Positions 7,920 through 26,713 of a stretch of DNA of 38,604 nt are shown in pieces (the stretch's first letter is position 1; each line of letters begins with the position of its first letter). The stretch is from the NCBI GenBank assembly GCA_937867415.1, contig CALMKO010000088.1:1-38604 (forward strand), given 5' to 3'. Made by a program: the position numbers and the translations under genes. The DNA comes from an uncultured Verrucomicrobiota bacterium (GTDB lineage: Bacteria; Verrucomicrobiota; Verrucomicrobiia; Verrucomicrobiales; Akkermansiaceae). The notes under the pieces are model-generated. The model did not search any database. It was not told the DNA's origin and was given only the letters and a program-made list of their open reading frames with translations.

Positions 7920-7978
7920 TTGGCTTGTTTGTGTTTTTCCAATCAAGCTCTACTTACCCGATTCCTAAGGCAGCACCG

Positions 7979-9259
7979 ATGACCCATGATACGACCCGCA
8001 GGGAGTTTATAAAGAAAACCGCGCAGCTTCTTGGCATGCCCGCAATCATCCCGGCCAGCGCACTTGGCCGCGATGGTCATGTGGCTCCGAGCAACCGTAT
8101 CCAAATCGGAATGATTGGCATCGGGCCACGGGGGCGCGAGGTTTTGGCACCGTTTCTCAAACAGCCGGATGTGCAATTGATTACTGTCTGCGACGTGCAG
8201 AAGTCGAATCGCTGGACTGCCAAGATGATGGTGGATCGCGCCTATAAGAATCAGGACTGCCAGACGACTGGCGAGATGCTGGAGGTCATCGGGCGCGATG
8301 ATATCGATGCGACCATCATCGCTACCGGTGATCGGTGGCACGCCGTGGCGAGCATCCTTGCGGCAAAGGCAGGCAAGGATGTCTATTCGGAAAAGCCATG
8401 TGCAATCACCATATCCGAGTGCCGGGAACTTGATGAAGCGGTCCGGCTCTATGGCCGGGTTTTCCAGGCAGGCACCCAGAGGCGGAATGTTCCGAATTTC
8501 CGCCAAGCGGTGGAACTCGCCCGCAGTGGACGTCTCGGACGGATCCATACCGTTCATGCTTCGATTTATCATCTTGAGGAAATTCATGAATGGCTGCCCG
8601 CAGAAGAGGAACCTGCGATTGAGGAGGTTGACTGGGACCGTTGGCTCGGTCCGGTGCCGTGGCGGCCCTACAATCAAGCCTATGTGCGCGGTCAGTGGCG
8701 CGGGCATCGTGATTTCGATTCCGGTGCGCGACTTCTGGATTGGGGTGCGCATACCGTGGACCTGTGCCAATGGGCGCTCGGTCTTGATGGAACGACTCCC
8801 GTGGAGTTTACACCGGATGGCCCGACGATTCACGCCCGCTACGCCAACGATGTGAAGCTGGTGATGCGCCCGGGTGGTCCGAAGGGAAATGGTGACTGGC
8901 TTGACCTGGGAACCTGCCCGATTCGTTTCGAGGGCGAAAACGGTTGGGTCGAGGCGGGTGATTTCGGAAAGATCGCCGCGGAGCCAACGTCCTTGTTGGA
9001 GGGGTTCGCCATCGAATCGGTGCCGGGCACAGACCCAACGGCCCACGTCCGTGATTTTCTCGACTGCATCAAGTCGCGAAATGCACCGGCATCAAATTCA
9101 GCAGTGATGCGCAGTTCTCACGTCGCCTGCCATGCTGCGGCCATCGCTTCCATCGTCGGCCGAAAAGTTACCTTTGATCCGGTTTCCGAATCCTTCGCCA
9201 ATGATGACGAAGCCAATCGTCTTTGCAGTCGCGCGCGGCGTGCACCTTGGCATGCATGA
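7979..9259 (+). CDS. Tat-exported Gfo/Idh/MocA family oxidoreductase
   Basis: A 426-residue NAD(P)-dependent sugar oxidoreductase. The start at 7979 (rather than the in-frame TTG at 7925) places the twin-arginine signal TTRREFIKK at the extreme N-terminus. A Rossmann fold follows with GIGPRG (Gly47, Gly49, Gly52) and the family Glu-Lys-Pro motif at 138-140 in YSEKPCAITI. The catalytic half contains GARLLDWGAHTVDLCQWAL, typical of this family. Tat export implies folding with cofactor before transport. It lies 14 bp before a DUF1080 gene, a pairing that in other bacteria supports oxidation of glycosides at C3 before cleavage. Substrate is not determinable from sequence. Confidence 0.92.
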   Translation: MTHDTTRREFIKKTAQLLGMPAIIPASALGRDGHVAPSNRIQIGMIGIGPRGREVLAPFLKQPDVQLITVCDVQKSNRWTAKMMVDRAYKNQDCQTTGEMLEVIGRDDIDATIIATGDRWHAVASILAAKAGKDVYSEKPCAITISECRELDEAVRLYGRVFQAGTQRRNVPNFRQAVELARSGRLGRIHTVHASIYHLEEIHEWLPAEEEPAIEEVDWDRWLGPVPWRPYNQAYVRGQWRGHRDFDSGARLLDWGAHTVDLCQWALGLDGTTPVEFTPDGPTIHARYANDVKLVMRPGGPKGNGDWLDLGTCPIRFEGENGWVEAGDFGKIAAEPTSLLEGFAIESVPGTDPTAHVRDFLDCIKSRNAPASNSAVMRSSHVACHAAAIASIVGRKVTFDPVSESFANDDEANRLCSRARRAPWHA

Positions 9260-9273
9260 AAGCCCAGTGATCC

Positions 9274-10452
9274 ATGAGTCCCGAAAAATCCTCACCTGCT
9301 GAGCTAGTCGAGTTGTTAGGGTCCGATGCGTCCTTCGAATTCAAGGCGCGGGCCTGCCAACGGCTCGCCGTCGTCGGCAATGAACAGGCAATTCCGTCAC
9401 TTGCAAAGTTGTTGGGCGATGACCGCTTGTCCGATTTCGCCCGCTCTGCGCTTGAAAACATTGCATTACCCGCTGCGGGAGCCGTGTTGATCGAGGCTCT
9501 GCCAAAATTGAACGGCCGATTGCTAGCCGGCGTGGTGAACTCACTTGCCGTGCGCCAGGAAAAGGCAGCGTTGGGTGGATTGATAGAACTGGCGAAGGAC
9601 CCGGTTCGGGGCATGCGATCCGGGGTGCTGGCTGCGATTGGCAGAATTGCCGCCACCGACGCCTCAATGGAGGACCAAACTCAACGCGCCCTTGCGATGT
9701 TGTCTTCCGTTAGTGATTCGCGGAGTGAGGCAGCATTGCTGGAAATCGCTCACGCAAATCTAGCGACGTCGGCCATGCTCATTCGCGTTGGGAACACCGA
9801 TGTCGCCATCCGGATGTTGAAAAGCCTCTTATCGTCCAACGCTCCTGCCCACATCCGAGAAGCGGCGCAGGAATTGTTACGAAATTCGCAGGCCATAAGT
9901 CTTTTCGACGGACACTCGCTCGATGGCTGGAAAGGGGACCTGTCTTGGTTCCGTGTTTTTGACCGCGCGATCATTGCTGGTTCGATGACCAAGGAGATTC
10001 CTCAAAATGAATTTCTCGTCGATGATCGCGTGTTTGAAGACTTCGAGTTGCGCTTGCAGTTCCGTTTGGTCAATCCCAAGGGAAATGGCGGCATCCAGTT
10101 CCGCAGCAAACGCGTGGAGGGCAGCAGCGAAATGGAAGGCTATCAGGCGGACATAGCAGAGGGCTTTTGGGGTGGCATTTACGACGAGAGCCGACGCAAA
10201 ACCTTCCTAGGGACCCGCTGCGATCCGAGTGCTCTGGTCGCAGTCCTTAAACCCGATGGATGGAACTGCTACACCATCCGCTGCGAAGGGCCGCACATCC
10301 GACTTTGGATCAACGGCCTTCTGACGACTGACTTCATGGAGAACGATCCCGCGATCCCGCGATCAGGTCATATCGGCCTCCAGATTCATTCGGGCCCGCC
10401 TTCCGAGGTTTGGTATCGGGAGATTCAAATTGAGGATTTGTCGCCACGATGA
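9274..10452 (+). CDS. HEAT-like repeat / DUF1080 fusion protein
   Basis: A 392-residue protein. The first ~205 residues are short alpha-helical repeats of HEAT type (for example FKARACQRLAVVGNEQAIPSLAKLL). From ISLFDGHSLDGWKGD (about 207) to the end is a DUF1080 jelly-roll (3-keto-disaccharide hydrolase / keto-glycoside lyase family), with GNGGIQFRSKR, GYQADIAEGFWGGIYDE, GWNCYTIRCEGPHIRLWINGL and GHIGLQIHSGPPSEVWYREI. There is no signal peptide, and an in-frame stop six bases upstream of the ATG rules out a longer version. It starts 14 bp after the oxidoreductase and is probably co-transcribed. The helical repeats may scaffold a partner. DUF1080 assignment is firm; the enzymatic activity is inferred from the family. 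Confidence 0.88.
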   Translation: MSPEKSSPAELVELLGSDASFEFKARACQRLAVVGNEQAIPSLAKLLGDDRLSDFARSALENIALPAAGAVLIEALPKLNGRLLAGVVNSLAVRQEKAALGGLIELAKDPVRGMRSGVLAAIGRIAATDASMEDQTQRALAMLSSVSDSRSEAALLEIAHANLATSAMLIRVGNTDVAIRMLKSLLSSNAPAHIREAAQELLRNSQAISLFDGHSLDGWKGDLSWFRVFDRAIIAGSMTKEIPQNEFLVDDRVFEDFELRLQFRLVNPKGNGGIQFRSKRVEGSSEMEGYQADIAEGFWGGIYDESRRKTFLGTRCDPSALVAVLKPDGWNCYTIRCEGPHIRLWINGLLTTDFMENDPAIPRSGHIGLQIHSGPPSEVWYREIQIEDLSPR

Positions 10453-10542
10453 CCCTTCTGGGCCAATAGACTCAGGTAACCAGCCAAGATTGCGGTGCTG
10501 GTACTCTGCTCATCAGCCTTTATACCATGAGTTTTCGGAAAA

Positions 10543-10560
10543 ATGGCCCGTTCGGGCCAT
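10543..10560. promoter_or_regulatory. Dyad operator-like site 3, upstream of first PEP-CTERM gene
   Basis: ATGGCCCGTTCGGGCCAT: eight-base arms that are perfectly complementary around a TT centre. It ends 82 bp before the start codon at 10643. The arms show paired changes relative to other copies (CCG/CGG here, CTG/CAG in site 4), so symmetry rather than exact sequence is maintained. Confidence 0.7.
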
Positions 10561-10642
10561 AGCCGGAATGCATCCAAGGAAATAAAACAAACCAGTTGGT
10601 TGCGTTCCCATACACGACACTCGACCCAAAAAACACCAGAGT

Positions 10643-11425
10643 ATGAAAAAACACCGCCCCCTCACCTTGGGATTTGTCTTGGCGATCACTAGTCCGCTCC
10701 ACGCAGCCGTAAGCTTCGTTGATAACTTCGATACTTACGCCACTGGAGGCCCGAATGCGGCCTTTGATGCTGCCTACAATCGGTCTTCTGCCCCAACGAT
10801 TTCGGCAAGTACCGGACTGGGTGGTAGCCAGAGTCTTCAGAATGGTACTGACATGGTCCTCAATCGCAAAGACACTGCAATCAATCTCACCACCGTCGGT
10901 GAAAACTCAATCACTCTCGATCTGTTCTTTCAGCACGTGTCAGCCACTGGTGTCGCCCGACCGCATATCGGATTGATGCCAACGAATTCACAGTTAACTT
11001 TCAGCTCTGGAACGGAGCTTAGCGCAAGAATCGGAGGCAACAACTGGTTGGAAATCCGCTCAAACGGCAGTGAACTTTTCAACGCGGGGACCGCAACGCT
11101 GTCGTTGACCGTTGGAAATTGGTACGATCTCCGAGCAACCATCACCCGGACGGCCACTACCAATCAGTTCAACATGTTGGTGGAACTTTATAACAGCAGT
11201 AACACCGGTGTTGTGGGTACCCTCGTAAGTTCGCTTTCCAATTCCACGGCGATCACAAATGCGGCTATGTGGACCGACACTGAGGTCTTTGCCGCCCTGC
11301 GCGAAAACTCAAGTATCGTCAATATCGACCGCTTCAGCGTCGTTCAGGTCCCCGAGCCGAACGCTGCCGCACTGCTCGGTGGTCTCGGCGCGTTCGCTTT
11401 GCTGCGCCGCCGACGCATCGTTTAA
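10643..11425 (+). CDS. PEP-CTERM-type secreted protein
   Basis: A 260-residue exported protein with a signal peptide (residues 1-22, ending LHAA) and a beta-rich body starting VSFVDNFDTYATGGPNAAF. It resembles LamG or concanavalin-like folds (FNAGTATLSLTVGNWYDLRATITR is a typical strand pattern). The last 25 residues are the sorting tail: VPEPNAA, a Gly-Gly-Leu-Gly hydrophobic helix and LLRRRR. In family terms this predicts processing by an exosortase-like enzyme and surface delivery, but no exosortase is in the window. It is preceded by a dyad site and followed by a two-hairpin 3' region shared with the next gene. A glycan-binding or envelope role is inferred only from context. Confidence 0.88.
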   Translation: MKKHRPLTLGFVLAITSPLHAAVSFVDNFDTYATGGPNAAFDAAYNRSSAPTISASTGLGGSQSLQNGTDMVLNRKDTAINLTTVGENSITLDLFFQHVSATGVARPHIGLMPTNSQLTFSSGTELSARIGGNNWLEIRSNGSELFNAGTATLSLTVGNWYDLRATITRTATTNQFNMLVELYNSSNTGVVGTLVSSLSNSTAITNAAMWTDTEVFAALRENSSIVNIDRFSVVQVPEPNAAALLGGLGAFALLRRRRIV

Positions 11426-11430
11426 GAATT

Positions 11431-11458
11431 TCCCGGGGTTAATGGGTTTTCCTCGGGA
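11431..11458 (+). other. Upstream hairpin of shared 3' UTR cassette, copy 1
   Basis: Arms 11431-11438 (TCCCGGGG) and 11451-11458 (CCTCGGGA) pair over eight positions with one G-U, around the loop TTAATGGGTTTT. The same loop is present after the second PEP-CTERM-type gene, where the stem has changed while mostly keeping pairing. Confidence 0.5.
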
Positions 11459-11463
11459 CTAGA

Positions 11464-11505
11464 GCGGGGTGGCTGACTGGAGGGTCAGCGACCCCGCTAT
11501 TTTTT
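11464..11505 (+). terminator. Intrinsic terminator after first PEP-CTERM gene
   Basis: A 14-bp stem with one mismatch (GCGGGGTGGCTGAC with GTCAGCGACCCCGC), a six-base loop TGGAGG, and a T-rich tail (11500-11505). It lies 38 bp after the stop codon and is nearly identical to the terminator at 14114. Confidence 0.88.
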
Positions 11506-11655
11506 AGGAAGAAAAACCATCTTTCTGACGCATCACCGTCTAGTGTCCCAGCCCTCATGGATCCTGTTGTATTCATAAGAGATCTAACCCCTGTGCTTGG
11601 TAGTCAGCGGCAGGCAGCGGTCCTTGACTTATTCATGTCATGAAGTGCCCGGAAA
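11506..11655. other. Intergenic stretch with nothing recognised
   Basis: Together with the flanking terminator and dyad sites this makes a 374-bp gap between the two PEP-CTERM-type genes. In this middle part I see no open reading frame, repeat or convincing promoter hexamers. Confidence 0.5.
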
Positions 11656-11673
11656 ATGGCCTGATCAGGCCAT
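11656..11673. promoter_or_regulatory. Dyad operator-like site 4 (perfect palindrome)
   Basis: ATGGCCTGATCAGGCCAT is a perfect 18-bp palindrome and the best representative of the family. It ends 126 bp before the start codon at 11800. Confidence 0.75.
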
Positions 11674-11719
11674 ACCAAAGATCCGAAGAGAACGATAGAA
11701 ATCCATAGTAACTCGTTCA

Positions 11720-11731
11720 GTGGCCTGATCA
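11720..11731. promoter_or_regulatory. Half copy of the dyad site
   Basis: GTGGCCTGATCA matches the left 12 bases of site 4 except the first base, then diverges into a C-rich run. It starts 64 bp after the start of site 4 and ends 68 bp before the gene start. It may be a weaker second binding site or chance similarity. Confidence 0.4.
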
Positions 11732-11799
11732 ACCCCCTCCCCGAAACCCCCTATCCATTGGCAAAAAACCACAAACAAAAAATCCCACAAGACCCATTT

Positions 11800-14076
11800 A
11801 TGAAGCCCCGTAATTTCTGTTTCTCTTCATTCCTCCCCGCGCTTGCGGTAATCACACTTTCGGTACCATCCGTCTTTGCCGCTACGGGCATTTGGAACGG
11901 CACTGCCGGTGGCGGGGATGGATTCTGGAATGATACTGCCAACACTGAGTGGTCCGGTGTCACCGGAAATGCTTGGGATGCGACGAATGGCCCGAACAAC
12001 GTTGCCCAGTTCAACTCCGGTGCTGTTGGCTCTAATCCTGGCACCTCGGGTACGCCCGTCGCCAATGGTATCATCTGGAACGGCGTTGGTGGGGGAATCA
12101 GCTCCGGCTCGGTTAAGCTGGATGGCGCCAATCCTTTTATCAATGTCAATACTGCCGGCCAGACCAGCCAGATGTATGCAGGCTTCAGCGGCACCAACGG
12201 CTTCACCAAGATAGGCGCTGGTCAGTTCTTCCTAATCGATACGGTCAAAGCCATTACCGGCGGAATTACAGTCAATCAAGGCCTGCTGCGTTTGGATCTG
12301 ACCACTGCGGCAACGGTTTCGGGTGTAGCGAATTCAACCAACGCCCTTACCCTCTCTGGTGGCACCCTCGAAGTGACAGGCAGAAACTACGTGGGCACTT
12401 CGTCTCAAACCTTGGGCGACTTCACGCTGAATACCGGAGGCAGCACCATCCGCATCAACCCCAACAGTGGTACCGGCACCACGCTGTCTCTTGCGAATTG
12501 GACCAGAACGTCAGGAACCAATTCGAGCTTGTTTGTGGATTCCTCCACCACCGGGACCAAAACCCTTACATTGACGGGGACCATTCCGACACTCTCGAAT
12601 GGAATTATCGGTAGCTATGCCACCATTAGGGACAGTGCGACCACTTTCGGCTTTGCCACTCTCGATGGTTCGAACAATGTGGTTCGCTACACGGCGGCCA
12701 CCCCAGTTACTTCCGCCCTCGGTGCTAATACCGTCAGTGGAACCAATTACCGAGCCACTAGCGCTGGGAACTTTTTCAACGGAAGCGGCACGGCCCAAAG
12801 TCTTAACAGTTTGGATATCGCGGTGGACGGTTCGGTCGGTGGTAATACTGCAGCGACCTTTACGTTGGGTTCCGGTGGGCTATTATATTCGCTTAGCAGC
12901 ACCTTCGCTAACCCCTCAGCAAACCTGAAACTCACTTCCTCGACTTCCGAATTACAAGTTTCAGCGCTAAGTTATAACAATGGATTTGCTTCTGGCACCA
13001 TTGGAAGCAGCGGCGGTATCTATGACAACGGTAGTCCAGTGAGTTTGGTCAAGGCCGGCCCGGGCGGCTTCAAAATGAGCAGCGGTACTTTCAGCTACAC
13101 GGGCGATACGATCGTTAATCAAGGCGTGCTTGATAACATCGCAAACCTCCCGAGCGGAACCGGCAAAGGTAACCTTGTGGTGAATTCCCAAGGCATTGTC
13201 GCCCTTGGACTGGGAACGAGTGGAACCCGGACCATCAATGGATTGTCAAACACCACTCTGGGGGGCGGCACGGTCAACAACCAGAACTACACTTCAACAG
13301 CAGCCACGGCCTTTTTGAATCTTGGCAATAACGATGCTACCGCAAGTTTCTCCGGTGTGCTGAGCGGCAATTTCAGCATCATCAAGAGCGGTGCCGGCAC
13401 GCAAACTCTGGCCGGTGTAAACACCTACGCAGGATCAACAGCGGTCAATGCGGGCAAGCTCACTATCGCCTCCACCGGCACGATCAACGGAACCAGCGGC
13501 ATCACGATCGGTGCGGGTGATTTCAACTACAACTCCTCCACCGCTCTCACCAAGGCTGTCACCTTTAGCGGCACCGGCGGAAAACTCAGCGGCAACGGCA
13601 CCATCAACCCGAACGTCAACGTCACCTCCGGTAATACCCTGGCGATCGGCAATAGCGTCGGCCAGATGAATTTCGGCGGTAATTTGACAGTCGGCGGCAC
13701 CTACCTTTATGAACTCATGGGTGGCGGGACCGTTGCCGACCTTGGTGATGTAACAGGCGCATTGACCCTCGGTGGCATCCTGGATCTGGTCCAGCTCGGC
13801 ACCTATACCAATGGCAACAAGTTCACCCTCTTCGCCTATGATGGTGCCCTCAGTGGCACTTTCACCACCCCCGGATTGGTCAATATTGCAGACGACACCC
13901 TATTCACCGATGCCGGCGGAAGCTGGCAGATCAACTATAATGACAACAGCCCAGGCCTGAATGGCGGAAGCGGCTTGAACTACGTGACCGTCACCGCCAT
14001 CCCCGAGCCGAACGTCGCCACCCTGTTTGGTGGACTGGGTGTGCTCGCCCTGCTGCGTCGCCGCCGCAAGGCGTAA
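11800..14076 (+). CDS. Autotransporter-type beta-strand repeat protein with PEP-CTERM-type tail
   Basis: A 758-residue secreted surface protein; the start at 11800 gives a signal peptide (FLPALAVITLSVPSVFA) and excludes a 14-codon TTG extension. The body is a beta-helix-like series with autotransporter-associated repeats, such as FTKIGAGQFFL...GGITVNQGLLRLD, LVKAGPGGFKMSSG...TIVNQGVLDN and IIKSGAGTQTLAGVNTYAGSTAVNAGKL. The N-terminus has the usual GIWNGTAGGGDGFWNDTANTEW opening. There is no beta-barrel; instead the last 25 residues form IPEPNVA, a GGLG hydrophobic helix and LLRRRR. This tail and its downstream hairpins are copies of those of the previous gene. Probably an envelope or extracellular-matrix protein. 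Confidence 0.92.
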   Translation: MKPRNFCFSSFLPALAVITLSVPSVFAATGIWNGTAGGGDGFWNDTANTEWSGVTGNAWDATNGPNNVAQFNSGAVGSNPGTSGTPVANGIIWNGVGGGISSGSVKLDGANPFINVNTAGQTSQMYAGFSGTNGFTKIGAGQFFLIDTVKAITGGITVNQGLLRLDLTTAATVSGVANSTNALTLSGGTLEVTGRNYVGTSSQTLGDFTLNTGGSTIRINPNSGTGTTLSLANWTRTSGTNSSLFVDSSTTGTKTLTLTGTIPTLSNGIIGSYATIRDSATTFGFATLDGSNNVVRYTAATPVTSALGANTVSGTNYRATSAGNFFNGSGTAQSLNSLDIAVDGSVGGNTAATFTLGSGGLLYSLSSTFANPSANLKLTSSTSELQVSALSYNNGFASGTIGSSGGIYDNGSPVSLVKAGPGGFKMSSGTFSYTGDTIVNQGVLDNIANLPSGTGKGNLVVNSQGIVALGLGTSGTRTINGLSNTTLGGGTVNNQNYTSTAATAFLNLGNNDATASFSGVLSGNFSIIKSGAGTQTLAGVNTYAGSTAVNAGKLTIASTGTINGTSGITIGAGDFNYNSSTALTKAVTFSGTGGKLSGNGTINPNVNVTSGNTLAIGNSVGQMNFGGNLTVGGTYLYELMGGGTVADLGDVTGALTLGGILDLVQLGTYTNGNKFTLFAYDGALSGTFTTPGLVNIADDTLFTDAGGSWQINYNDNSPGLNGGSGLNYVTVTAIPEPNVATLFGGLGVLALLRRRRKA

Positions 14077-14081
14077 AGATT

Positions 14082-14109
14082 TTCCGGAGTTAATGGGTTT
14101 TCCCCGGAA
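14082..14109 (+). other. Upstream hairpin of shared 3' UTR cassette, copy 2
   Basis: Arms 14082-14089 (TTCCGGAG) and 14102-14109 (CCCCGGAA) enclose the same TTAATGGGTTTT loop as copy 1. Relative to copy 1 the second pair changes from C-G to U-A and one G-U becomes G-C; one pair is lost (A/C). Confidence 0.5.
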
Positions 14110-14113
14110 CTGA

Positions 14114-14156
14114 GGCGGGGTTGCTGACTGGAGGGTCAGCGACCCCGCCATATTTT
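14114..14156 (+). terminator. Intrinsic terminator after second PEP-CTERM-type gene
   Basis: A 15-bp stem with one T-G pair (GGCGGGGTTGCTGAC with GTCAGCGACCCCGCC), the loop TGGAGG and a T-rich tail. Its end lies only three bases before the start codon of the next gene, so that gene must have a promoter overlapping this region or depend on read-through. Confidence 0.87.
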
Positions 14157-14159
14157 AGT

Positions 14160-15158
14160 ATGAAAATGAATCCGACCACCTTGTTCGCCAGCCTTCTCTC
14201 CTTATGTCTGATTTTGAACGCTAAGGGAGCGGATCTGCTTCCTTTGGTGCCTGGAAAGGGAGTTGAAGCGCGCCCGTTCCTAATCGCCGGGGAATGGGAT
14301 ACCCGCCACCCCGAAGCACAGTCCATCTTCCTCGTGCGGGATGGAAAAGTGGCGTGGAAATACTCGATTCCCCTGTATCTATGTCCATTCGCGATTCAGC
14401 AATTCTCAGACGTGAACATGCTCTCCAATGGAAACATTCTCTTTGCTTGCATGTCGGGGGCCGGAATCATTTCGCCGGACAAGAACCTGATCTGGGAGTT
14501 CCGATGCCCTTATGGCACCGAGACTCACTCGTGCAAACCCATTGCGAAGGACACGGTGCTGCTGGCCTTGAACGGGAAAGTGGGCAAGGTTATGGTCATC
14601 AATACCGCGACGAACACGATTCTAAAGGAAATCATCGTCCCGACAGAATCCACCTTCGTGCACTATCAGTTCCGGCATGTGACGATCACGCCGGGAAAGA
14701 AGACGTTCATGGTAGGCTTGCTTGGTGAAAAGAAGGTCATTGAAATGGACTTCGACGGCAAGGTGGTCTGGTCATACAACGCGTCTTCCGCCTGGTCGGT
14801 CATCCGCTTGCAAAATGGCAATACCCTTATTACAGGTGACAGCGAGGCCTACACGAGGGAAGTGAACATCGAGGGAGAGACCGTATGGGAATTTACCCAG
14901 AAGGATGCACCGTTCAAACTCTACAACACCCAGACCGCAAATCGCTTGGCGAATGGAAACACGGTCATTTGCAACTGGGTGGCGGGTGTGAAGAACACCG
15001 AGGAATGGAAGACGTCCGTTCAGGCATTCGAAGTCACTCCGGATAAAACGGTGGTGTGGTCCTTGTCGGCATGGGACGAGCCGGATCTCGGCCCTTGCAC
15101 CTGCATTCAACTGCTCGACGAACCAAGGAATGCCGATGAAGGCGAGTGGCCGCAATGA
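14160..15158 (+). CDS. Secreted PQQ-like beta-propeller protein
   Basis: A 332-residue exported protein (signal peptide FASLLSLCLILNAKGA; ATG 14166 is an alternative start). The body is a series of four-stranded blades recognisable by repeated W/Y-x-(Y/F) strand ends and NGN turns: GKVAWKYSIP, SNGNILFACM, NLIWEFRCP, GKVVWSYNA, QNGNTLITGD, ETVWEFTQ, ANGNTVICNW and KTVVWSLSA. This pattern is typical of PQQ-like / arylsulfotransferase-like propellers often placed beside pectinolytic or hydrolase genes in Verrucomicrobiota. No catalytic residues can be assigned. It precedes the GH28-like gene by 22 bp, suggesting co-transcription. Confidence 0.82.
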   Translation: MKMNPTTLFASLLSLCLILNAKGADLLPLVPGKGVEARPFLIAGEWDTRHPEAQSIFLVRDGKVAWKYSIPLYLCPFAIQQFSDVNMLSNGNILFACMSGAGIISPDKNLIWEFRCPYGTETHSCKPIAKDTVLLALNGKVGKVMVINTATNTILKEIIVPTESTFVHYQFRHVTITPGKKTFMVGLLGEKKVIEMDFDGKVVWSYNASSAWSVIRLQNGNTLITGDSEAYTREVNIEGETVWEFTQKDAPFKLYNTQTANRLANGNTVICNWVAGVKNTEEWKTSVQAFEVTPDKTVVWSLSAWDEPDLGPCTCIQLLDEPRNADEGEWPQ

Positions 15159-15180
15159 ATCCACGAATGCGTTCCAATTC

Positions 15181-16662: not shown

Positions 16663-16667
16663 GCGTT

Positions 16668-16790
16668 CTAGTATTTGGCCAGGATCAGTTTTCCATTGTG
16701 ATGGACATTGAGGGCCATTTCATCTTTCAGCGGCTTTCCCGTGGGGTCGATTCTGCTTAGCCTAGAGAGGGAAATAGAACCGCAGACGGA
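16668..16790 (-). pseudogene. Possible 3' remnant of a degraded gene
   Basis: On the minus strand a short frame without a start reads LSRIDPTGKPLKDEM followed by ALNVHHNGKLILAKY and a stop at 16668-16670. It has protein-like composition but is cut by a stop just upstream, next to the 10-bp tandem repeat. I do not recognise the family. It may be the last part of a lost gene. Confidence 0.3.
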
Positions 16791-16810
16791 CGCAGATTAA
16801 CGCGGATAAC
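16781..16810. repeat. Three 10-bp imperfect tandem units
   Basis: CGCAGACGGA, CGCAGATTAA and CGCGGATAAC follow each other without gap. The pattern resembles short CGCAGATTAACGCGGAT-type intergenic repeats seen dispersed in some environmental genomes. Only one locus is visible here. A 15-bp inverted repeat (16836-16850, TCACCCTCAGGGTGA) lies close by. Confidence 0.55.
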
Positions 16811-16879
16811 TAGAAAGTTGCGTCGATTGTTGCCATCACCCTCAGGGTGAAGCTAGAGTTTTTGAGAAGTTACTTAAAA

Positions 16880-17557
16880 TCAATTTTCATCAGGCACGAA
16901 TTCGCGGTTGCTGGATAGGATGAATTTGTCCATGGCAAATCCATCTTCGCGCATGCTGAACATAATCTCATTCTCGCCAGGCTTCGTGACATCGAGATAC
17001 AACTGGAGCGGCACACCAGAGTGGACTTCATCGGTCCGCTGCCTGCTGTCCCAAGCCCAGGCGTGTTTTTTCACGGTCTGCCAGCGTTGTCCGGATGCCG
17101 GCCACTCGCCGTTAAGTCCTACATGGATGCCGTTGTCCTCGGTGCCGGTCGAGAAGACTCTCACCCAGACATAGTATCGCCCGGGATTCTTGAAATGTGC
17201 TTTGTAATGGAGCACCCCCATCTTTCCGGGTTCGCTACAGAAGTTCTCTCCATCGATGAGTGGGTCGTCATGAGTCACTCGACTGTCCGGCAGAATCTCC
17301 ACATAGGCACCACCGCTGGCGCCCGGTAGGTGGGATGGATCCGGATCCGGTTTTATGTCCGGAATCCTTTCTGGTGATGCGATGTGCCACGCACGTGTCG
17401 TGGCGATACTCTGCTTGTAATAGTACTCGGCCTCCACGGAGAGCAAGCCATCATCTTCGGTAAACACCAGATCGGGTTTGGGAGCGTGCCTCTCGATTGC
17501 TAGTGCAGCACCGCAGGCGGTGATCATCAGCGCAGCGGTGAATGGCTTAAGATTCAT
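16880..17557 (-). CDS. Secreted protein with GH115-C-terminal-like domain
   Basis: A 225-residue exported protein (signal peptide FTAALMITACGAALA). The body matches the beta-sandwich domain commonly annotated as glycosyl hydrolase family 115 C-terminal: DGLLSVEAEYYYKQ, ASGGAYVEILPDSRVTHDD, NPGRYYVWVRVFSTGTEDNGIHVGLNG, EWPASGQRWQ and MFSMREDGFAMDKFIL. In larger enzymes this domain is an accessory, probably carbohydrate-binding module; here it stands alone. It is the last gene of the four-gene minus-strand operon, 32 bp after the sugar dehydrogenase. Confidence 0.8.
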   Translation of the reverse strand: MNLKPFTAALMITACGAALAIERHAPKPDLVFTEDDGLLSVEAEYYYKQSIATTRAWHIASPERIPDIKPDPDPSHLPGASGGAYVEILPDSRVTHDDPLIDGENFCSEPGKMGVLHYKAHFKNPGRYYVWVRVFSTGTEDNGIHVGLNGEWPASGQRWQTVKKHAWAWDSRQRTDEVHSGVPLQLYLDVTKPGENEIMFSMREDGFAMDKFILSSNREFVPDEN

Positions 17558-17589
17558 GGGAGGGTTAGTTGCTGGTGTTGTGTATCAAC

Positions 17590-19887
17590 TCACGGATCTT
17601 TTGCTGGCGTCTGTTGGATCCACTCTTTCAGGAGTGCGACCGCCTTTTGATCGACTTCTGACGATCCGAATGGCGGCATGCGGGTGAAGCCGTTGGTGGT
17701 GGCAAGCCGGTGATAGATAACGGAGTGGTCTGGATCTTGCGGAACGATGAGTTTGTTGAGGGGATTGCCGCCGTTGTTGATGGCCTTGCCGTTGATGAGT
17801 CCGGTTTGCTCCAGCGTGAGTTCAGGGCGCGCGTCCAATACCCCATAGGGCACCATGCCGCCGGCTTTGTGGCAGTAGGCACAGTTTACGGCGAGGTAAG
17901 AGCGGACGCGGGCTTCGAGTGGAGCTTTGTTATCATCCGTTGCGAAGTAGCGGGGAAGCTGACTGGGTGAAACGGGTGGGGCGCTGAGGTAGTCGCTGTT
18001 TTTAAGAAAGGTGAGTTGGTTGCCGCTGAAGCCCTGGAAGGCGAAGTTTCGATTGAGTTGGCGGGTGTCGAAGGAAAGCGCGTAGCCGGCCTGCGGCGAG
18101 TGGCAGGCGATGCACTCGGAGCGGCTCGGGACGTGCCAGCGCTGGGTGGTGGCCGTGCCATCCACGGTGAGCTTGAGATCGATATCGGCGCCGCTGTCAG
18201 GCACCAGCGTGGCATCGGTCCCGGCGTCATTCCATCGGTAGCTGACACCATAAGCGCCGGAAGTGCTTTTTACTAACAACCGGGTTTCAAGGCGCTTCCT
18301 GGTCGCTGGATTTCCGCGCACGGTTTCCATATCGAAGTGCTGCACCCAGATCTGCCCGGCAGGAAACGTCCACAAGCCATCGCCAGATGGGATCATTCTG
18401 TCGGTGGTATTCGGGATGATGAACCAGTTGCGGGTGATGGCGTGGTCGTTCCAGGAAGGGAGGTTGATCGTATAGGGAATCAAACCTGGGGCAGGGGAGA
18501 GTTTGGCGAGATCGGTGAAGAGACCGGTCGCACTGAGCGTGGCTGGGAAACGGGTGGTGGCCGTATCGGTCGTAAGCCGGAGGATGCGATTGCCGTCGAA
18601 GTCAGCCATGAGCAGGTCGCCATTTGACGGATCAGTCCCGAACGCGACGATCCCTACCTCACCGGCGATGCGGGTCACGGTCGGCGGCTGTGTCCCATTG
18701 CGAGTGAGCGACCAGATATGGCCGGAGACGAAGTCGGAAAAGATATAGGAACCGGTCAGGCTTGGAATCCCCGAGCCACGATAGACGAGGCCGCCGGAAA
18801 TCGACTTGCCGATGAAGTTGGAATCTCCACCACTGTGGGTGTATTCGTAGAGTGGTTTTTTGTGGAGCCTATCGAAATCGGCGGGTGCGTCTTTGGCCTT
18901 GGGGCCGTCGTGATTTCCCTCGCGGAAAGCCCAGCCGTAGTTGCCGCCCTTGGTGATGATGTCCACTTCCTCGTAGCTGTTGGATCCGACGTCGCCGACC
19001 CAAAGTTCGTTCGTTTGGGAGTCGAAGCTAAAACGCCACGGATTGCGCAGTCCGACCGCCCAGAACTCGGTGCGGACCTTCGCGGGGTCGATGGCAATAC
19101 CATTGAAACTTGTCGCGCCGACGAAGGGGTTGTCCGCCGGGACGGAGAAGCGTGCCACTCCGGCATCCAGCGGAATCGCTGCGTGGGGATTGGGGGCAAG
19201 GCTGCCGGTTTTTTTGTCCACATCGATGCGGGCAATGCCTGCGAAGAAGTCCTTCGTGATGTTCTGGCTGTTGTTGTAAAGGTCATTCTGCCAGCCTTCG
19301 TCGCCGAAGGAAATGTAGAGGTAACCGTCAGGACCGAAGTGAAGATCGCCGCCGTTGTGATTGTCAGCTTCATCTTCCTGCTGGAGCAGGACCAGTTCAG
19401 AGTCGCTGTCAGCGGAGTCGGGGTCTCTTGCTTTCGTGGTGAAACGCGAAACCCGTTCGTAAACCGTGCTGCCGATCTTCACTGAATAGAAGATATAGAA
19501 ATAGCGGTTCCTCGCGTAGTTCGGATGAAAAGCGATGCCTAACAATCCCTGTTCACTGGAGGTGCTGAGCGATTCGTTGCGCGACTTCAGCAGGGCTGGA
19601 AGATCGAGGAAAGTGGATGGCGTCGGCGTGCTTGCAGTCACGTCAGGGATCAGGCGGACAAGCCCCCCGCGATCACAAGCAAAGAGCCGCCGCGTATCGC
19701 CGGGTGGGCTGGTCATGGCCACGGGTGAGGACACTCCCGTGAAGGCCGTGACCACCTGAATGGCAAGTGTCGGCGGCGTGGCCGGAACGTTGAGATTGGG
19801 ATTTCCAACGCGAGGGGCCTGGGAAAGAGCGCCTTGAAGCGACATCGCAAACAGCCCGTTTACTGCTAGAAGTATTTTTGAATTCAT
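17590..19887 (-). CDS. PQQ-type sugar dehydrogenase with C-terminal di-haem cytochrome c region
   Basis: A 765-residue secreted protein. After the signal peptide, residues ~35-430 form a glucose/sorbosone dehydrogenase beta-propeller: EQGLLGIAFHPNYARNRYFYIFYS, NHNGGDLHFGPDGYLYISFGD, GLRNPWRFSFD, LWVGDVGSNSYEEVDII and GGNYGWAFREG. The C-terminal ~300 residues contain two haem c motifs, CIACH (Cys592-His596) and CAYCH (Cys669-His673). A likely axial Met lies in MPPFGSSEVD near the end. The enzyme should oxidise a sugar using PQQ and pass electrons through its own haems. Its ATG overlaps the stop of the upstream DUF1080 gene in ATGA, so the two are translationally coupled. Confidence 0.92.
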   Translation of the reverse strand: MNSKILLAVNGLFAMSLQGALSQAPRVGNPNLNVPATPPTLAIQVVTAFTGVSSPVAMTSPPGDTRRLFACDRGGLVRLIPDVTASTPTPSTFLDLPALLKSRNESLSTSSEQGLLGIAFHPNYARNRYFYIFYSVKIGSTVYERVSRFTTKARDPDSADSDSELVLLQQEDEADNHNGGDLHFGPDGYLYISFGDEGWQNDLYNNSQNITKDFFAGIARIDVDKKTGSLAPNPHAAIPLDAGVARFSVPADNPFVGATSFNGIAIDPAKVRTEFWAVGLRNPWRFSFDSQTNELWVGDVGSNSYEEVDIITKGGNYGWAFREGNHDGPKAKDAPADFDRLHKKPLYEYTHSGGDSNFIGKSISGGLVYRGSGIPSLTGSYIFSDFVSGHIWSLTRNGTQPPTVTRIAGEVGIVAFGTDPSNGDLLMADFDGNRILRLTTDTATTRFPATLSATGLFTDLAKLSPAPGLIPYTINLPSWNDHAITRNWFIIPNTTDRMIPSGDGLWTFPAGQIWVQHFDMETVRGNPATRKRLETRLLVKSTSGAYGVSYRWNDAGTDATLVPDSGADIDLKLTVDGTATTQRWHVPSRSECIACHSPQAGYALSFDTRQLNRNFAFQGFSGNQLTFLKNSDYLSAPPVSPSQLPRYFATDDNKAPLEARVRSYLAVNCAYCHKAGGMVPYGVLDARPELTLEQTGLINGKAINNGGNPLNKLIVPQDPDHSVIYHRLATTNGFTRMPPFGSSEVDQKAVALLKEWIQQTPAKDP

Positions 19888-20720
19888 GGATCGCTCTTAA
19901 GAAACGGCTCGGCAGGCAAATCTGCTTGAAATTCCTTGATTCGGATATTTCGATAGAATATCTCCGCGGTCTCAGCCTGGAAGGCGATCGGGCCCGTGTC
20001 CTTGGAGAGCGCGGTCGCATGGTTGACCACCTTGCCGTTGACTTTGTGGATGGTGTAGTGGCCGCCCATCACGATCAGCTCGCATTGATTCCATTGACCA
20101 ACGAGTCCGTGGACCACGGCATCCGCCGCAGCGGGATGGTCCCATTTTTTGTTGGTGAGGACGGTGCCTCCTTTGCCGGGAAGAATGAAGCAACCGTCCG
20201 GACATTGCTCCCAAGTGAAACTCACGCCCAGATCCCACAGCTCTCCCGTATAATTCGTTTGATTCAAATGTTCGTATCGGATCTGGAACTCCAAGCCCGC
20301 CGGCCAGATTTTTTGATCGATCATGTGATAGTAAAGCCCCGCGTCATACTGCCATTGACCGAAGTTGTTCAGTCTTTTTGGTCCCCACTTGTATTCAAAC
20401 TTGAGGCTGTAGCGGCTGTAAGACTTCTTGCTCACCATCATCGCATGGGTGTCATCGATCTTCTGGTCGAGCTGGAAACCGTCCTGGAAGTTTTGATAGA
20501 CGTGAATCTCGCCATTTTCGCCGGGACTGAAAACCTGAATCGCGGTTTCCGGTTTTCCATCCTTTGAGAGGAGCATCCAGTTTTCAAAACCCTTTCCATT
20601 GTAGATCGAAACATATCCCTCCGGCACCGCAGGCTCGGCCGCATGTACGGCCATGGCGGTCGAAAAAAGCAGGGCAGACGATAGAAGTTTCACTACTTGA
20701 AAAGGTTGGTTTGTGATCAT
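19884..20720 (-). CDS. Secreted DUF1080 protein (3-keto-disaccharide hydrolase family)
   Basis: A 278-residue exported protein. The ATG at 20720 is preferred over 20732 because it overlaps the GH43 stop codon as ATGA and begins the signal peptide (VVKLLSSALLFSTAMAVHAA). The rest is one DUF1080 jelly-roll: YVSIYNGKGFENWMLL, KKSYSRYSLKFEYKWG, QYDAGLYYHMIDQKIWPAGLEFQI, GQWNQCELIVMGGHYTIHKVNGK and TGPIAFQAETAEIFYRNIRI. Members act on glycosides oxidised at C3. Coupling to GH43 on one side and a sugar dehydrogenase on the other supports an oxidative glycan step in the periplasm. Substrate unknown. Confidence 0.9.
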   Translation of the reverse strand: MITNQPFQVVKLLSSALLFSTAMAVHAAEPAVPEGYVSIYNGKGFENWMLLSKDGKPETAIQVFSPGENGEIHVYQNFQDGFQLDQKIDDTHAMMVSKKSYSRYSLKFEYKWGPKRLNNFGQWQYDAGLYYHMIDQKIWPAGLEFQIRYEHLNQTNYTGELWDLGVSFTWEQCPDGCFILPGKGGTVLTNKKWDHPAAADAVVHGLVGQWNQCELIVMGGHYTIHKVNGKVVNHATALSKDTGPIAFQAETAEIFYRNIRIKEFQADLPAEPFLKSDP

Positions 20721-22042
20721 TCGAAAGTCCACCAGTCCACCAGCGGCCCGTCCTCACCTGTTACTTTGAAATCCAGTTCCACGGCATGCACGCCGCTGAC
20801 GGCGGAGGCTTCGCAGACGACCTCGGTCCATGTTACATCAGGTGCGCCCTTGATTTCGAGGGTTGCGATCTTCGATGACGAGCCATCGCCTGATTGGAAG
20901 CTGATGGTGCTGTCGGATTTCCCCGGTTTGACGCGTATTCGCAGATGTTTCGGCATTGTTTTGAAATCGAGATATTTATAAACCGCGCGGTCGCCATCGC
21001 GGATACCCGAGAGTATCTCAGTATCCTCGCCCACCGTGGAGACACGCATATTTCCCCACAGCCCGCATGCCTGTTCTGCCTCGATCCGCAGGCTGGAGTC
21101 GAGCGGCGGCTCGGCGCCTTGGGTTGTCATCTCCACCTCGGGAATACTGCCGTCATCACGAAAGGTGATCGGTTCCACACAAGTCCGCCGCATCATGACG
21201 ACTCCTTGGCTGGAACGATGGTAGAATACATACCATTTCCCGCCGAACCCGACGATAGAGCCATGGTTGTTCCAGTTTCCCGGGTTGCAGTGGGAGTTGT
21301 CGATGATCACGCCCCGATACTGGTAAGGCCCGAATGGAGATTTGCTAGTCGCATAGCCGAGGCAGCTTGGCGTTGCTGCGCGACTGACATCGGCATAGAT
21401 CAGGTAGTAAAGGCCGTTTCGCTTGGTCATGGAGGCTCCCTCGTGGAAATGATGTTCCTTCTCAGTGATGACTGGTTCTTGGATCGACCCCTCGTCAAGC
21501 GTCCGCATGTCTTTGTTGAGCTTCGCCATTTTCAGATTGAACTGCCCCCAGACAAGATAGGCTTGTCCGTCATCGTCGATGAAGGTGGCTGGATCAATTT
21601 CCAAATGCTTGCCGACGTTGAGGAAGCTTGGATTCGAGAAGGGACCGGTAGGGCATTCTGAGGTGGCAACCCCGATAGGAATCTGATCCGGTTGACAGAA
21701 GTAGAAGTAGTATAAGCCGTCCCGGTATTGGCAATCGGGCGCATAGAGAATGGTGTCATTGGCTGGCAACATGTCGTTTTTTCCCAAGGTGACAAAGCTG
21801 TCTGGATGGAACTTCCATGTCTTCATGTCATTGGTGGAAAGCACGACGTTGGAGTAGGAACAATAGTGGTCGGTTTTTTCGTCCAGCGAGCAATAGACAT
21901 AGAGCTGCCCGTCCGCGCCGACCTTGGCGGAGGGATCCGCTGGAAAAGTCGATGGCGGACCGATGGGATTGCGGGCTTGCGCTCCGGTGACGATGGCGAG
22001 GAAAATCGCAATAATGAAGTTGATATCAATGGATTTACGCAC
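20717..22042 (-). CDS. Secreted GH43 enzyme with CBM6-like module
   Basis: A 441-residue enzyme. The GTG at 22042 is chosen because it gives a compact signal peptide (MRKS then INFIIAIFLAIVTGAQA) and leaves the dyad site upstream; ATG 22069 is the alternative. The five-bladed propeller shows the GH43 triad: base Asp36 in PADPSAKV, Asp150 in LEIDPATFIDDDGQAYLVWG and acid Glu201 in FHEGASMTKRNGLYYLIYA. Residues ~320-441 are a CBM6-like beta-sandwich (RIEAEQACGLWGN, GDRAVYKYLDF, DFKVTGEDGPLVDWWTFE). Likely activities are arabinofuranosidase or xylosidase on hemicellulose or pectin side chains. First gene of the operon driven by dyad site 5. Confidence 0.92.
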   Translation of the reverse strand: MRKSIDINFIIAIFLAIVTGAQARNPIGPPSTFPADPSAKVGADGQLYVYCSLDEKTDHYCSYSNVVLSTNDMKTWKFHPDSFVTLGKNDMLPANDTILYAPDCQYRDGLYYFYFCQPDQIPIGVATSECPTGPFSNPSFLNVGKHLEIDPATFIDDDGQAYLVWGQFNLKMAKLNKDMRTLDEGSIQEPVITEKEHHFHEGASMTKRNGLYYLIYADVSRAATPSCLGYATSKSPFGPYQYRGVIIDNSHCNPGNWNNHGSIVGFGGKWYVFYHRSSQGVVMMRRTCVEPITFRDDGSIPEVEMTTQGAEPPLDSSLRIEAEQACGLWGNMRVSTVGEDTEILSGIRDGDRAVYKYLDFKTMPKHLRIRVKPGKSDSTISFQSGDGSSSKIATLEIKGAPDVTWTEVVCEASAVSGVHAVELDFKVTGEDGPLVDWWTFE

Positions 22043-22076
22043 CGAGCCACGCTGACACGTTCTTACCATTCGAGAT

Positions 22077-22094
22077 ATGGCCTGATCGGGCCAT
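22077..22094. promoter_or_regulatory. Dyad operator-like site 5, upstream of GH43 operon
   Basis: ATGGCCTGATCGGGCCAT, one base from a perfect palindrome. On the minus strand it ends 34 bp before the chosen GTG start, closer than the other copies, which would fit a repressor site near the promoter or a misjudged start codon. Confidence 0.68.
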
Positions 22095-22547
22095 TCGTTG
22101 GATCTTGAAATTCGCATTCGGCCGGTGAAGTGTCCCGGTTGGGAGACTATTGGGAATTGAGCAGGGATTCATCGGAGGAATTCGACTTGGAAGCGGAGGA
22201 AGTGATTTCCTTACATCTCGGATAATCAGCAAAAACTGTTTGATTGCGCCTGAAGAACCGGCGCAGGTCCACCCAGAAAAACAGTAGCCAAAAGCAGTCA
22301 AAAATCTCTTGGCAAAGTGACCCGGAGAGCTACCCTCGTCGCATCTGAATTTATCCGCCAGGTTCAGAGGTGATGATCACGAAATTGCTGCTGATGCATC
22401 GCGTTTTTCTTCACGGCTTACCGGTAGATTTCACTTTGTTATCACCCATTGCCTAGCCTCTGGTAAGTGCATCGACTCTTTCAACGAACTTCACCGGTAA
22501 ACTGATAATCATACAAATCCCCGAACCAACTCTTTTCACAATAAAAT
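22095..22547. other. Intergenic region between divergent GH43 and DUF1080 genes
   Basis: About 450 bp that must hold promoters for both directions. I see no reading frame of coding character and no second dyad. Two copies of ACCGGTA (around 22420 and 22494) are too short to interpret. Confidence 0.45.
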
Positions 22548-23312
22548 ATGAATACCCGAAAAATCCAATCGACCGCCATTCCGTCATTTGTTGCTGTAAT
22601 GTTCGGTCTGTCATCCCTTGCAAAAAGCGCCGAACCCATCTTTCCGGAACCTGCCGGGGCGGATACAGCAGGATTTATTTCGATCTTCGACGGCAAAACT
22701 CTAACAAACTGGGAGGCGGACCCGAAGTATTGGCGTGTCGAAAACGGAATGCTCGTCGGTGAGGTAACTCCGGAAACGCTGCTCAACGCCAACTCATTCG
22801 CCATCTGGCGCGGCGGTGCGCCTGCCGATTTCGAACTAAAAGTCGAATACCGCGTAAGCGCCGACGGAAATAGCGGAATCAACTACCGCAGCAGCCAGGT
22901 GCCTAACCCAGCCTTCGCCTTGAAGGGCTATCAGTGTGACATCGACGGCGCCTTCAGTTGGACCGGGCAAAACTACGAGGAGCGTGGACGCACCTTCCTC
23001 GCCCTCCGTGGGCAAATGACACGACTAACAGCTGATGCCAAGCCCGCGATCGTCGCCAGCACCGGCGAAAAAGACGCGCTCGCGAAGTTTCTGCGTGGTG
23101 AAGACTGGAACCAAGTCCACCTCATCATCCGCGGCAATGTCCTCACCCACTTGATTAACGGTCACGTCATGTGCGTCGTTGTGGACGAGGATTCCGCCGC
23201 GCGAACGGCCGCCGGGCTGATCGGAGTGCAGGTCCACGTCGGCCCGCCGATGAAGATTGAATATCGGAATTTCATGCTCAAGCTGCTTCCTCCGAATACT
23301 GGCAAGCCTTGA
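22548..23312 (+). CDS. Secreted DUF1080 protein (3-keto-disaccharide hydrolase family)
   Basis: A 254-residue exported protein with a signal peptide (SFVAVMFGLSSLAKSA). It is the canonical small DUF1080 form: FISIFDGKTLTNWEADPKYWRVENGMLVGE, APADFELKVEYRVSADGNSGINYRS, LKGYQCDIDGAFSWTGQNYEERGRTFL, DWNQVHLIIRGNVLTHLINGHVM and AGLIGVQVHVGPPMKIEYRNFML. It is the third DUF1080 gene of the window and is diverged from the other two. Transcribed divergently from the GH43 operon. A truncated copy of its 3' end lies 470 bp downstream, pointing to past duplication. Confidence 0.92.
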   Translation: MNTRKIQSTAIPSFVAVMFGLSSLAKSAEPIFPEPAGADTAGFISIFDGKTLTNWEADPKYWRVENGMLVGEVTPETLLNANSFAIWRGGAPADFELKVEYRVSADGNSGINYRSSQVPNPAFALKGYQCDIDGAFSWTGQNYEERGRTFLALRGQMTRLTADAKPAIVASTGEKDALAKFLRGEDWNQVHLIIRGNVLTHLINGHVMCVVVDEDSAARTAAGLIGVQVHVGPPMKIEYRNFMLKLLPPNTGKP

Positions 23313-23426
23313 GCGGTTTGCCATCAATGCTCGGTAACGTGATAGGCGAGGCGGTGGTGCGCAAGAATCCGATTAAACTTGACAGTAGATCGCCGTTGGA
23401 TCGACGCGTCTGTCGGCTCGCTGGAT

Positions 23427-23723
23427 CTATTTTTGAGCTGCTTTTCGCAACTGGCGGTCTCTTGCCGACCAGATTACAAAATAGATGGCTGTGAGCATCA
23501 GAGGGAATGCTACTGCAAATTCTAGTGTGCTTTTGAGATTCTGTTGCAACGTCTCGCCATTGATGAACCCCAGAATGAAGTATGCAGTTACGGTCAACAA
23601 TATTTTTAACCAGTTTTCACTCAAGAATGGCCGAATAAAGCCACTTGTAAGCATGAGCGACCATTGAGTGTTTCGAGCCTCCTTCGTCAATCGAAAGCGT
23701 TGATGGAGCGTTTTGATAATCAT
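23427..23723 (-). CDS. Small two-helix membrane protein, unknown
   Basis: A 98-residue protein with a basic N-terminus and two hydrophobic segments: WLKILLTVTAYFILGFI (about residues 38-54) and FAVAFPLMLTAIYFVIW (about 69-85), ending RDRQLRKAAQK. The composition is that of a real inner-membrane protein rather than a shadow frame. It has no signal for a function. It sits between a complete DUF1080 gene and a truncated copy of it, on the opposite strand, so it may have come in with the rearrangement. Confidence 0.6.
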   Translation of the reverse strand: MIIKTLHQRFRLTKEARNTQWSLMLTSGFIRPFLSENWLKILLTVTAYFILGFINGETLQQNLKSTLEFAVAFPLMLTAIYFVIWSARDRQLRKAAQK

Positions 23724-23779
23724 TTTTGGTGGGTTGAAATTCTGTCAGGTATGTTATTGATTACCGCAAGCGCCGCCCC

Positions 23780-23974
23780 CGTCTTTCCATCCGCGGCAAG
23801 GTCATCACCCACTTGATCAACGGCCGCGTCATGTGCGTCGTTGTGGACGAGTATTCCCCCGCGCGAACGGATGCCGAGCTGATCGGAGTGCTAGTCCACG
23901 CCGGCCCGCCGATGAGGATTGAATACCGGAATCTCATGCTCAAGGTGCTTCCGCTGGCTGCGGGAAGTCCTTGA
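23780..23974 (+). pseudogene. Truncated DUF1080 copy (3' fragment)
   Basis: The frame reads LSIRGKVITHLINGRVMCVVVDE then LIGVLVHAGPPMRIEYRNLMLKVLP and stops at 23972-23974. It is clearly homologous, at DNA and protein level, to the last ~65 codons of the complete gene at 22548. Homology continues for about 20 bases beyond the stop. There is no signal peptide and no start, so it is a relic of a tandem duplication. The frame has stayed open despite many substitutions. Confidence 0.85.
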
Positions 23975-26700: not shown

Positions 26701-26713
26701 GAATATTTTTTGC

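Follow-up and report, generated by a model that had tools for sequence, protein, structure and literature searches.

A conserved oxidoreductase and HEAT-DUF1080 gene pair in an Akkermansiaceae genome, a candidate module for oxidative glycoside cleavage

Background

The window analysed here is the entire contig CALMKO010000088.1 (C88; 38,604 nt) of assembly GCA_937867415.1, from an uncultured Verrucomicrobiota bacterium of the family Akkermansiaceae whose genome measures 4.9 Mb in 470 contigs and is 95.75% complete. At positions 7979-10452 it encodes a Gfo/Idh/MocA family oxidoreductase, hereafter GFO, followed by a protein in which HEAT repeats are fused to a DUF1080 domain (3keto-disac_hyd, PF06439). 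These two genes form a conserved module that recurs in relatives. We lean towards reading it as a two-gene system for the oxidative cleavage of glycosides, with the operon of GH43, DUF1080 and GSDH genes and the GH16 and GH3 genes of the same contig as separate neighbours. An earlier note on this DNA, made from its sequence, had listed GFO with an adjacent DUF1080 gene, the GH43-DUF1080-GSDH group, a third DUF1080 gene with a relic, and four GH16 genes, all of which were located as described by Pfam or sequence match. The pair of GFO with a HEAT protein, with or without DUF1080, is the finding worth keeping. The observation in that note was right and its interpretation partly right. The coding elements of the pair are as follows.

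7979-9259, plus strand: GFO, Gfo/Idh/MocA oxidoreductase with a twin-arginine motif, likely a sugar or glycoside dehydrogenase (Pfam, NCBIfam, alignment)
9274-9888, plus strand: HEAT-repeat half of HEAT-DUF1080, without signal peptide (Pfam, structure model)
9889-10452, plus strand: DUF1080 half of HEAT-DUF1080 (PF06439 136.4 bits, fold match)

Periplasmic Gfo-type glycoside 3-dehydrogenases and DUF1080 keto-glycoside hydrolases are already known kinds of protein. A passage of PMC11300592 describes BT2158 of Bacteroides thetaiotaomicron as a periplasmic glycoside 3-dehydrogenase, and its Gfo type was taken from sequence match. Passages of PMC9007349 call BT2157 a 3-ketotrehalose hydrolase and propose a different DUF1080 protein as the 3'-ketolactose hydrolase; further passages on these kinds occur in PMC10628242 and PMC11003636. 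Loss of either BT2157 or BT2158 by deletion left growth on raffinose-family sugars unimpaired, according to a passage of PMC11501099. As far as titles and the beginnings of abstracts tell, none of the literature found for HEAT repeats, DUF1080, Gfo and the two phyla concerns the pair.

Results and discussion

Recurrence of the pair in related genomes

Among 145 genomes of the family, 13 GFO copies were found at no less than 53% identity, six of which are followed by a HEAT gene (C88, C213, G013:C83, G093:C40, G030:C3 and G101:C55). A DUF1080 gene adjoins GFO in C88, G013, G101:C255, G016 and G123 (Pfam 96.3 bits); in G062 the adjoining DUF1080 gene is cut by the contig end, and in G083 the gene at the same place was likened by its closely similar N-terminus alone. 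For a wider comparison, the best 80 of 434 GFO relatives from genomes of named species were used (54-74% identity), spanning Verrucomicrobiota, Planctomycetota, Lentisphaerota, Kiritimatiellota, Armatimonadota and Hydrogenedentes. These loci are mutually related, and the counts below are uncorrected for kinship, so that no P value can be read at face value. Downstream of GFO and on its strand, iterated profile search places a HEAT homologue in 49/80 loci (48 by single-sequence search); in one of the loci, L186, it comes after a second GFO.

DUF1080 genes lie within 5 kb of GFO in 25 of the 80 loci, which is a lower bound because the profile overlooks some true members (that of L063 was recognised by Pfam only). 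The 26 copies, 25 of them on the GFO strand, fall within 614 kb, a density of about 42 per Mb. This is some 13 times that of the window's own genome, in which 17 PF06439 matches, 16 over the cut-off (3.3 per Mb), were found, three of them on the window contig. In 59 genomes of the phylum, this one included, 162 matches were distributed over 25 positive genomes (0.84 per Mb), with 10 to 27 per genome in some, and at the rate of the richest genome about four DUF1080 genes would be expected near GFO, compared with the 26 observed. The earlier note had named conserved linkage in relatives as the test of its proposal; for GFO and DUF1080 that linkage exists, far above background. That this contig holds three DUF1080 genes was rejected as evidence in its own right: a Poisson estimate gave 3e-4 for this contig and about 0.04 across all such windows of the genome, which makes the cluster only mildly unusual.

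HEAT and DUF1080 form a single polypeptide in 17 of the 25 DUF1080-bearing loci. Pfam analysis of five such fusions (L155, L173, L175, L197 and L215) recognised PF06439 in all five and HEAT over the cut-off in four; the L173 locus also has ThuA (Pfam). The two parts are separate genes in L182, L186 and L188, DUF1080 occurs without a detected HEAT protein in L176, L177, L180, L199 and L218, and HEAT alone is a further layout. Nineteen of the 26 DUF1080 copies are closest to the fused domain of the window, three of them weakly (25-28%). Elsewhere in the genome, neither HEAT nor DUF1080 was found in the stretches examined around four more distant GFO paralogues (C305, C395, C467 and C85, loci L053-L056; 30-36% identity), and no GFO in those around 13 other DUF1080 regions.

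Several related loci differ in arrangement. In L038 (C163, 9117-9554), a Glyoxalase_4 gene takes the place of HEAT after a GFO copy of 60% identity. In L063, L064 and L065, which belong to one genus, GFO is flanked upstream by a DUF1080-type gene and downstream by the gene of a large protein, which in L063 is a planctomycete-type cytochrome protein (PSCyt1/PSD) by Pfam. In L045 (C293, 5658-7646), a DUF1080 gene that is 46% identical to the window fused domain is preceded, at a distance of about 400 bases, by a homologue of the window propeller gene at 14121-15158 (75% identity). L135 (4957-11901) contains two BT2158-like GFO genes, both matching the twin-arginine translocation (Tat) profile, interspersed with three DUF1080 genes, a keto-glycoside cluster that looks fuller than that of the window.

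The oxidoreductase

The open frame of GFO spans 7925-9259 and opens with TTG; the methionine at 7979 begins MTHDTTRREFIKK, a twin-arginine motif. GFO belongs to the Gfo/Idh/MocA proteins, with PF19051 (97.7 bits) and PF01408 (50.6 bits) over their cut-offs, PF22725 also matched, and the expected lysine and histidine kept. In alignment A1 (13 rows) R7, R8, F10 and K139 are invariant and H258 is present in at least 90% of rows; we take K139 to be the EKP lysine and H258 the C-terminal-domain histidine of Gfo/Idh/MocA oxidoreductases. An RRx[FL] motif stands near the N-terminus in 78/78 relatives whose N-terminus is covered, the GFOs of the nine loci with signal-less HEAT proteins among those that carry it, and the genome encodes TatC (208.4 bits). 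Judging from the twin-arginine motif, GFO may well be exported, although the Tat profile is missing from its matches (see below). Its mode of action may resemble that of BT2158-type enzymes, although it is not a BT2158 equivalog. Immediately upstream of GFO lies a gene for a prepilin-like N-methylation protein (7152-7919).

The fused DUF1080 domain

The HEAT-DUF1080 gene (9274-10452) adjoins GFO, and its product matches HEAT_2 (34.9 bits) and PF06439. All three DUF1080 proteins of the window exceed the PF06439 gathering cut-off of 26.8 (136.4, 97.1 and 112 bits), and none of them matched the NCBIfam DUF1080 models. The structure model of HEAT-DUF1080 has a predicted local distance difference test score (pLDDT) of 94.6 and a predicted template modelling score of 0.80. 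The best fold match of residues 206-392 is BT3469 (4jqt; Z 22.7, root-mean-square deviation 2.5 A, 179 aligned residues, 33% identity). Residues 202-390 match the 3-keto-glycoside eliminase/hydratase 9fbe (Z 20.1, 2.3 A, 172 aligned), and the eliminase/hydratase 8rr2 and the hydratase 8tda each gave Z 18.7, 2.3 A and 171 aligned residues. The HEAT residues resemble designed alpha-Rep proteins, with Z about 15.

In the mechanism that we propose, GFO would be exported in folded form via Tat with its nicotinamide cofactor bound and would act outside the membrane, oxidising a glycoside hydroxyl, most likely that at C3. The DUF1080 domain of its partner, as its family and fold suggest, would then eliminate, hydrate or hydrolyse the keto-glycoside. 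HEAT domains are binding scaffolds, and because of this and the recurring gene order the HEAT domain may be an adaptor that joins the two enzymes.

Several results weigh against this reading. The Tat profile TIGR01409, which does match two GFOs of L135, is absent from the matches of the window GFO at an expectation value (E) of 0.001. Its top NCBIfam match, BT_2158_fam (NF058561), reached 142.7 bits against an equivalog cut-off of 750 and covered the N-terminal part only. By this model the window GFO ranks 8th of 22 in its own genome (C236, C344, C90 and C281 score 283-340 bits), and the five best matches of the genome sit on contigs without a PF06439 match. No HEAT homologue was found in 31/80 loci and no DUF1080 near GFO in 55/80, partly because many of these stretches run out at contig ends. 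HEAT-DUF1080 has no signal peptide, so that its compartment may differ from that of GFO. Finally, the binding module CBM66 (4azz) fits the fused domain with Z 18.6 (2.5 A, 157 aligned), level with 8tda, and the domain has Gln at a site that is Glu in eight of 13 DUF1080 domains from this genome.

The last two points also favour a different role, in which the fused DUF1080 is a sugar-binding module bringing substrate to a self-contained GFO that acts as a GH109-like oxidoreductase or glycosidase dependent on nicotinamide adenine dinucleotide. A GH109 protein (6t2b) is indeed among the weak sequence matches of GFO (E 5e-5), and overlap of DUF1080 and CBM66 is noted in a passage of PMC5673643. 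Since CBM66 fits nearly equally well, the fold supports the family and cannot separate enzyme from binding module. We nevertheless consider a pure binding role unlikely: BT3469, itself a DUF1080 protein, outscores CBM66 as the top fold match, and 26 to 29 of 32 aligned DUF1080 stretches retain N271, R277, D293, Y303 and H372. The assignment of DUF1080 proteins to 3-keto-glycoside enzymes in the earlier note thus holds in so far as the fused domain matches eliminase/hydratase structures, and is weakened by CBM66, whose score differs by less than 1 Z from most of theirs.

The absent signal peptide

The most interesting feature of the pair is that its second protein in the window has no signal peptide. 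An in-frame TGA at 9268 directly precedes the ATG at 9274 and leaves no room for one; a GFO-HEAT fusion by read-through or frameshift was considered as well, and this stop separates the two genes in the window. A signal or lipoprotein peptide starts the HEAT proteins of 40/49 relatives, the classes being a reading of N-terminal extensions aided by a hydropathy score, with several open reading frames overlapping GFO. The nine without one are L139-L144 (HEAT-DUF1080) and L166, L167 and L168 (HEAT only); the HEAT proteins of the window, C213 and G093 lack it likewise. In alignment A2 the start of the signal-less proteins coincides with that of the mature portion in the rest. In a GFO tree of 84 rows the window, C213 and six other HEAT-DUF1080 loci form one clade (support 100/99); a second signal-less clade (100/100) unites G093, L167 and L168, and L166 belongs to neither. 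C213 (L037, 5479-7406) carries a GFO paralogue from the same genome (83% identity) and, after it, a gene for HEAT alone, whereas its clade mates have fusions; being nested in the fusion clade without DUF1080, it has probably lost that domain.

One possibility, to which we give limited credence and which overlaps the other readings, is that HEAT-DUF1080 of the window clade stays in the cytoplasm and acts on imported keto-sugars, apart from the exported GFO. A signal peptide is impossible at 9274, and the rest of the clade reads likewise; the gene order with GFO is nevertheless retained in the signal-less clade, and in 40 of the 49 relatives the HEAT protein does carry a signal peptide. The idea that HEAT in general serves GFO as a Tat chaperone confined to the cytoplasm was rejected, since most HEAT relatives have such a peptide. 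Returning to an oxidise-then-cleave module, we would tentatively suggest for the window clade that HEAT-DUF1080 travels as a passenger, bound through HEAT to the folded Tat substrate GFO, so that a pre-assembled complex would cross the membrane with one signal.

The GH43-DUF1080-GSDH operon

A second DUF1080 gene of the window belongs to a minus-strand run.

20717-22117, minus strand: GH43 with CBM6 (GH43 158.3 bits; ATGA overlap with the next gene)
19884-20732, minus strand: second DUF1080, likely ATG at 20720, N-terminus signal-peptide-like by eye (PF06439 97.1 bits)
17590-19887, minus strand: GSDH propeller with SO2930-like dihaem cytochrome c (GSDH 119.7 bits, NCBIfam)
16880-17557, minus strand: GH115 C-terminal-domain-like protein, last of the run (PF17829 29.6 bits)

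ATGA stop/start overlaps on both sides of the second DUF1080 join it to GH43 and GSDH. Its fold search (mean pLDDT 77.9) confirmed the family only. At E 1e-150, 31 of 337 phylum genomes have relatives of the GSDH/cytochrome protein; 21 of 44 other copies were fetched with their flanks, together with C234. Neither DUF1080 nor GH43, the latter sought with one sequence, was found near GSDH at any of the 21 other loci (22 copies), a negative that is somewhat weaker than it appears since the DUF1080 profile overlooks some members. On this count GSDH was rejected as an oxidant partner in general. The second DUF1080 has few relatives (at E 1e-40, in 6 of 337 genomes), and 11 loci were compared (subfamily alignment A3). 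In L135 the subfamily stands with the two BT2158-like GFOs, which score 311 and 293 bits to BT_2158_fam. In L066 it follows a DUF7133-cytochrome c protein, the sole Pfam-confirmed haem neighbour among the 11 loci; in L067 and L137 another DUF1080 lies close by, and in L068 a neighbour bears one CxxCH. Judged by its neighbourhoods, the subfamily can partner oxidoreductases, and this GSDH was seen in no other of the 11 loci.

The GSDH domain (PF07995) is well over its 25-bit cut-off, while the sugar dehydrogenase model for pyrroloquinoline quinone (PQQ), TIGR03606, gave 65.3 bits, below its cut-off of 434.55. The best solved match is hedgehog-interacting protein, followed by true quinoprotein dehydrogenases among others. 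The SO2930 dihaem cytochrome c model TIGR03806 reached 209 bits against 313.3 and spans 2-313 of its 314 positions. PqqC had no match in the genome, nor in 14 controls, and PqqE matched only far below its cut-off (81.2 of 381), other Pqq genes not having been searched. On the TIGR03606 score and the solved matches, the PQQ-type oxidation proposed in the earlier note is doubtful.

That note had further joined GFO, the three DUF1080 genes, GSDH/cytochrome and the GH16 and GH43 enzymes into one system acting on beta-glucan or hemicellulose. All of the parts do lie on a single 38.6 kb contig with three of them coupled by ATGA overlaps, a DUF1080 of the third type occurs near GFO in some loci (see below), and the arrangements in L066 and L135 point the same way. 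We hold the joint system to be very unlikely, given the empty GSDH loci, the single haem neighbour among the second-DUF1080 loci, and the result of a tblastn search (1e-8) in which 87 relative stretches (84 different places) gave no homologues of the window GH3, GH16, GH43, GSDH or MFS genes near GFO. For beta-glucan or hemicellulose to be what is oxidised, the only basis is the position of the genes in this contig.

The third DUF1080 gene

22548-23312, plus strand: third DUF1080, stand-alone, N-terminus signal-peptide-like by eye (PF06439 112 bits)
23788-23992, plus strand: relic copy of the third DUF1080 3' end (84.9% identity, 205 bases)

The relic corresponds to the closing section of the third DUF1080, with its stop and the bases just after, and agrees at 174/205 positions, the identity being derived from an ungapped score. 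The third DUF1080 lies about 13 kb from GFO in the window. Six of the 26 DUF1080 copies near GFO, each in a different one of the 80 loci, are closest to it (37-40%; L173, L180, L182, L186, L199 and L218), so that it may be a second, stand-alone partner of GFO; one copy (25%, L177) is closest to the second DUF1080. The conserved linkage of the fused gene to GFO and the type of the third gene both support a part of the interpretation in the earlier note.

Other genes of the window

565-2949, plus strand: GH3 (Pfam)
3096-3956, plus strand: GH16 (Pfam)
24007-26757, minus strand: GH16 with DUF1349-like domain (Pfam)
26714-28138, minus strand: MFS sugar transporter, GluP-like (TIGR01272 257.9 bits, cut-off 202.55)
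28165-35799, minus strand: GH16 with DUF1349 and PKD, multidomain protein (domain scan)
35854-38310, minus strand: GH16 with DUF1349 (Pfam)

These are the neighbours of the pair and the operon. The GH16 protein at 28165-35799 has 2544 residues with repeated DUF1349 and PKD modules. A protein with an FGE-sulfatase (formylglycine-generating-like) domain is encoded between GH16 and GFO (4044-5222), and the region 10643-14076 encodes a PEP-CTERM-like protein, 0.3 bits under its cut-off, and a PATR-repeat protein ending in a similar LLRRRR tail.

Comparison with known systems

Like the BT2156-BT2160 locus of B. thetaiotaomicron, the module combines a Gfo-type dehydrogenase, predicted to act outside the cytoplasm, with a DUF1080 protein of matching fold. 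Unlike in that locus, GFO is far under the BT_2158_fam cut-off, and the DUF1080 domain is fused to HEAT, without signal peptide, and closer to BT3469 than to BT2157 (3osd). BT3469, a tandem DUF1080 protein, is the best match of the fused domain in both sequence and structure, but no HEAT domain was matched in it. In Caulobacter, too, oxidation followed by DUF1080 cleavage outside the cytoplasm is proposed (a passage of PMC9007349), with the LacABC dehydrogenase as the oxidant there and a Gfo/Idh/MocA protein in the window. Thermogutta, from a related phylum, likewise has several DUF1080 proteins, which a passage of PMC5673643 on xanthan breakdown proposes as direct glycosidases, unlike the role suggested here. 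In the Thermogutta GFO locus (L211) the HEAT gene has a signal peptide and no DUF1080 was detected.

Conclusions

To our knowledge, most DUF1080 proteins of the phylum are experimentally uncharacterised. The conserved pair names a partner for both of its proteins and offers a candidate enzyme couple, and the clades with and without a signal peptide on the HEAT protein provide a natural comparison of how an enzyme complex may cross the membrane.

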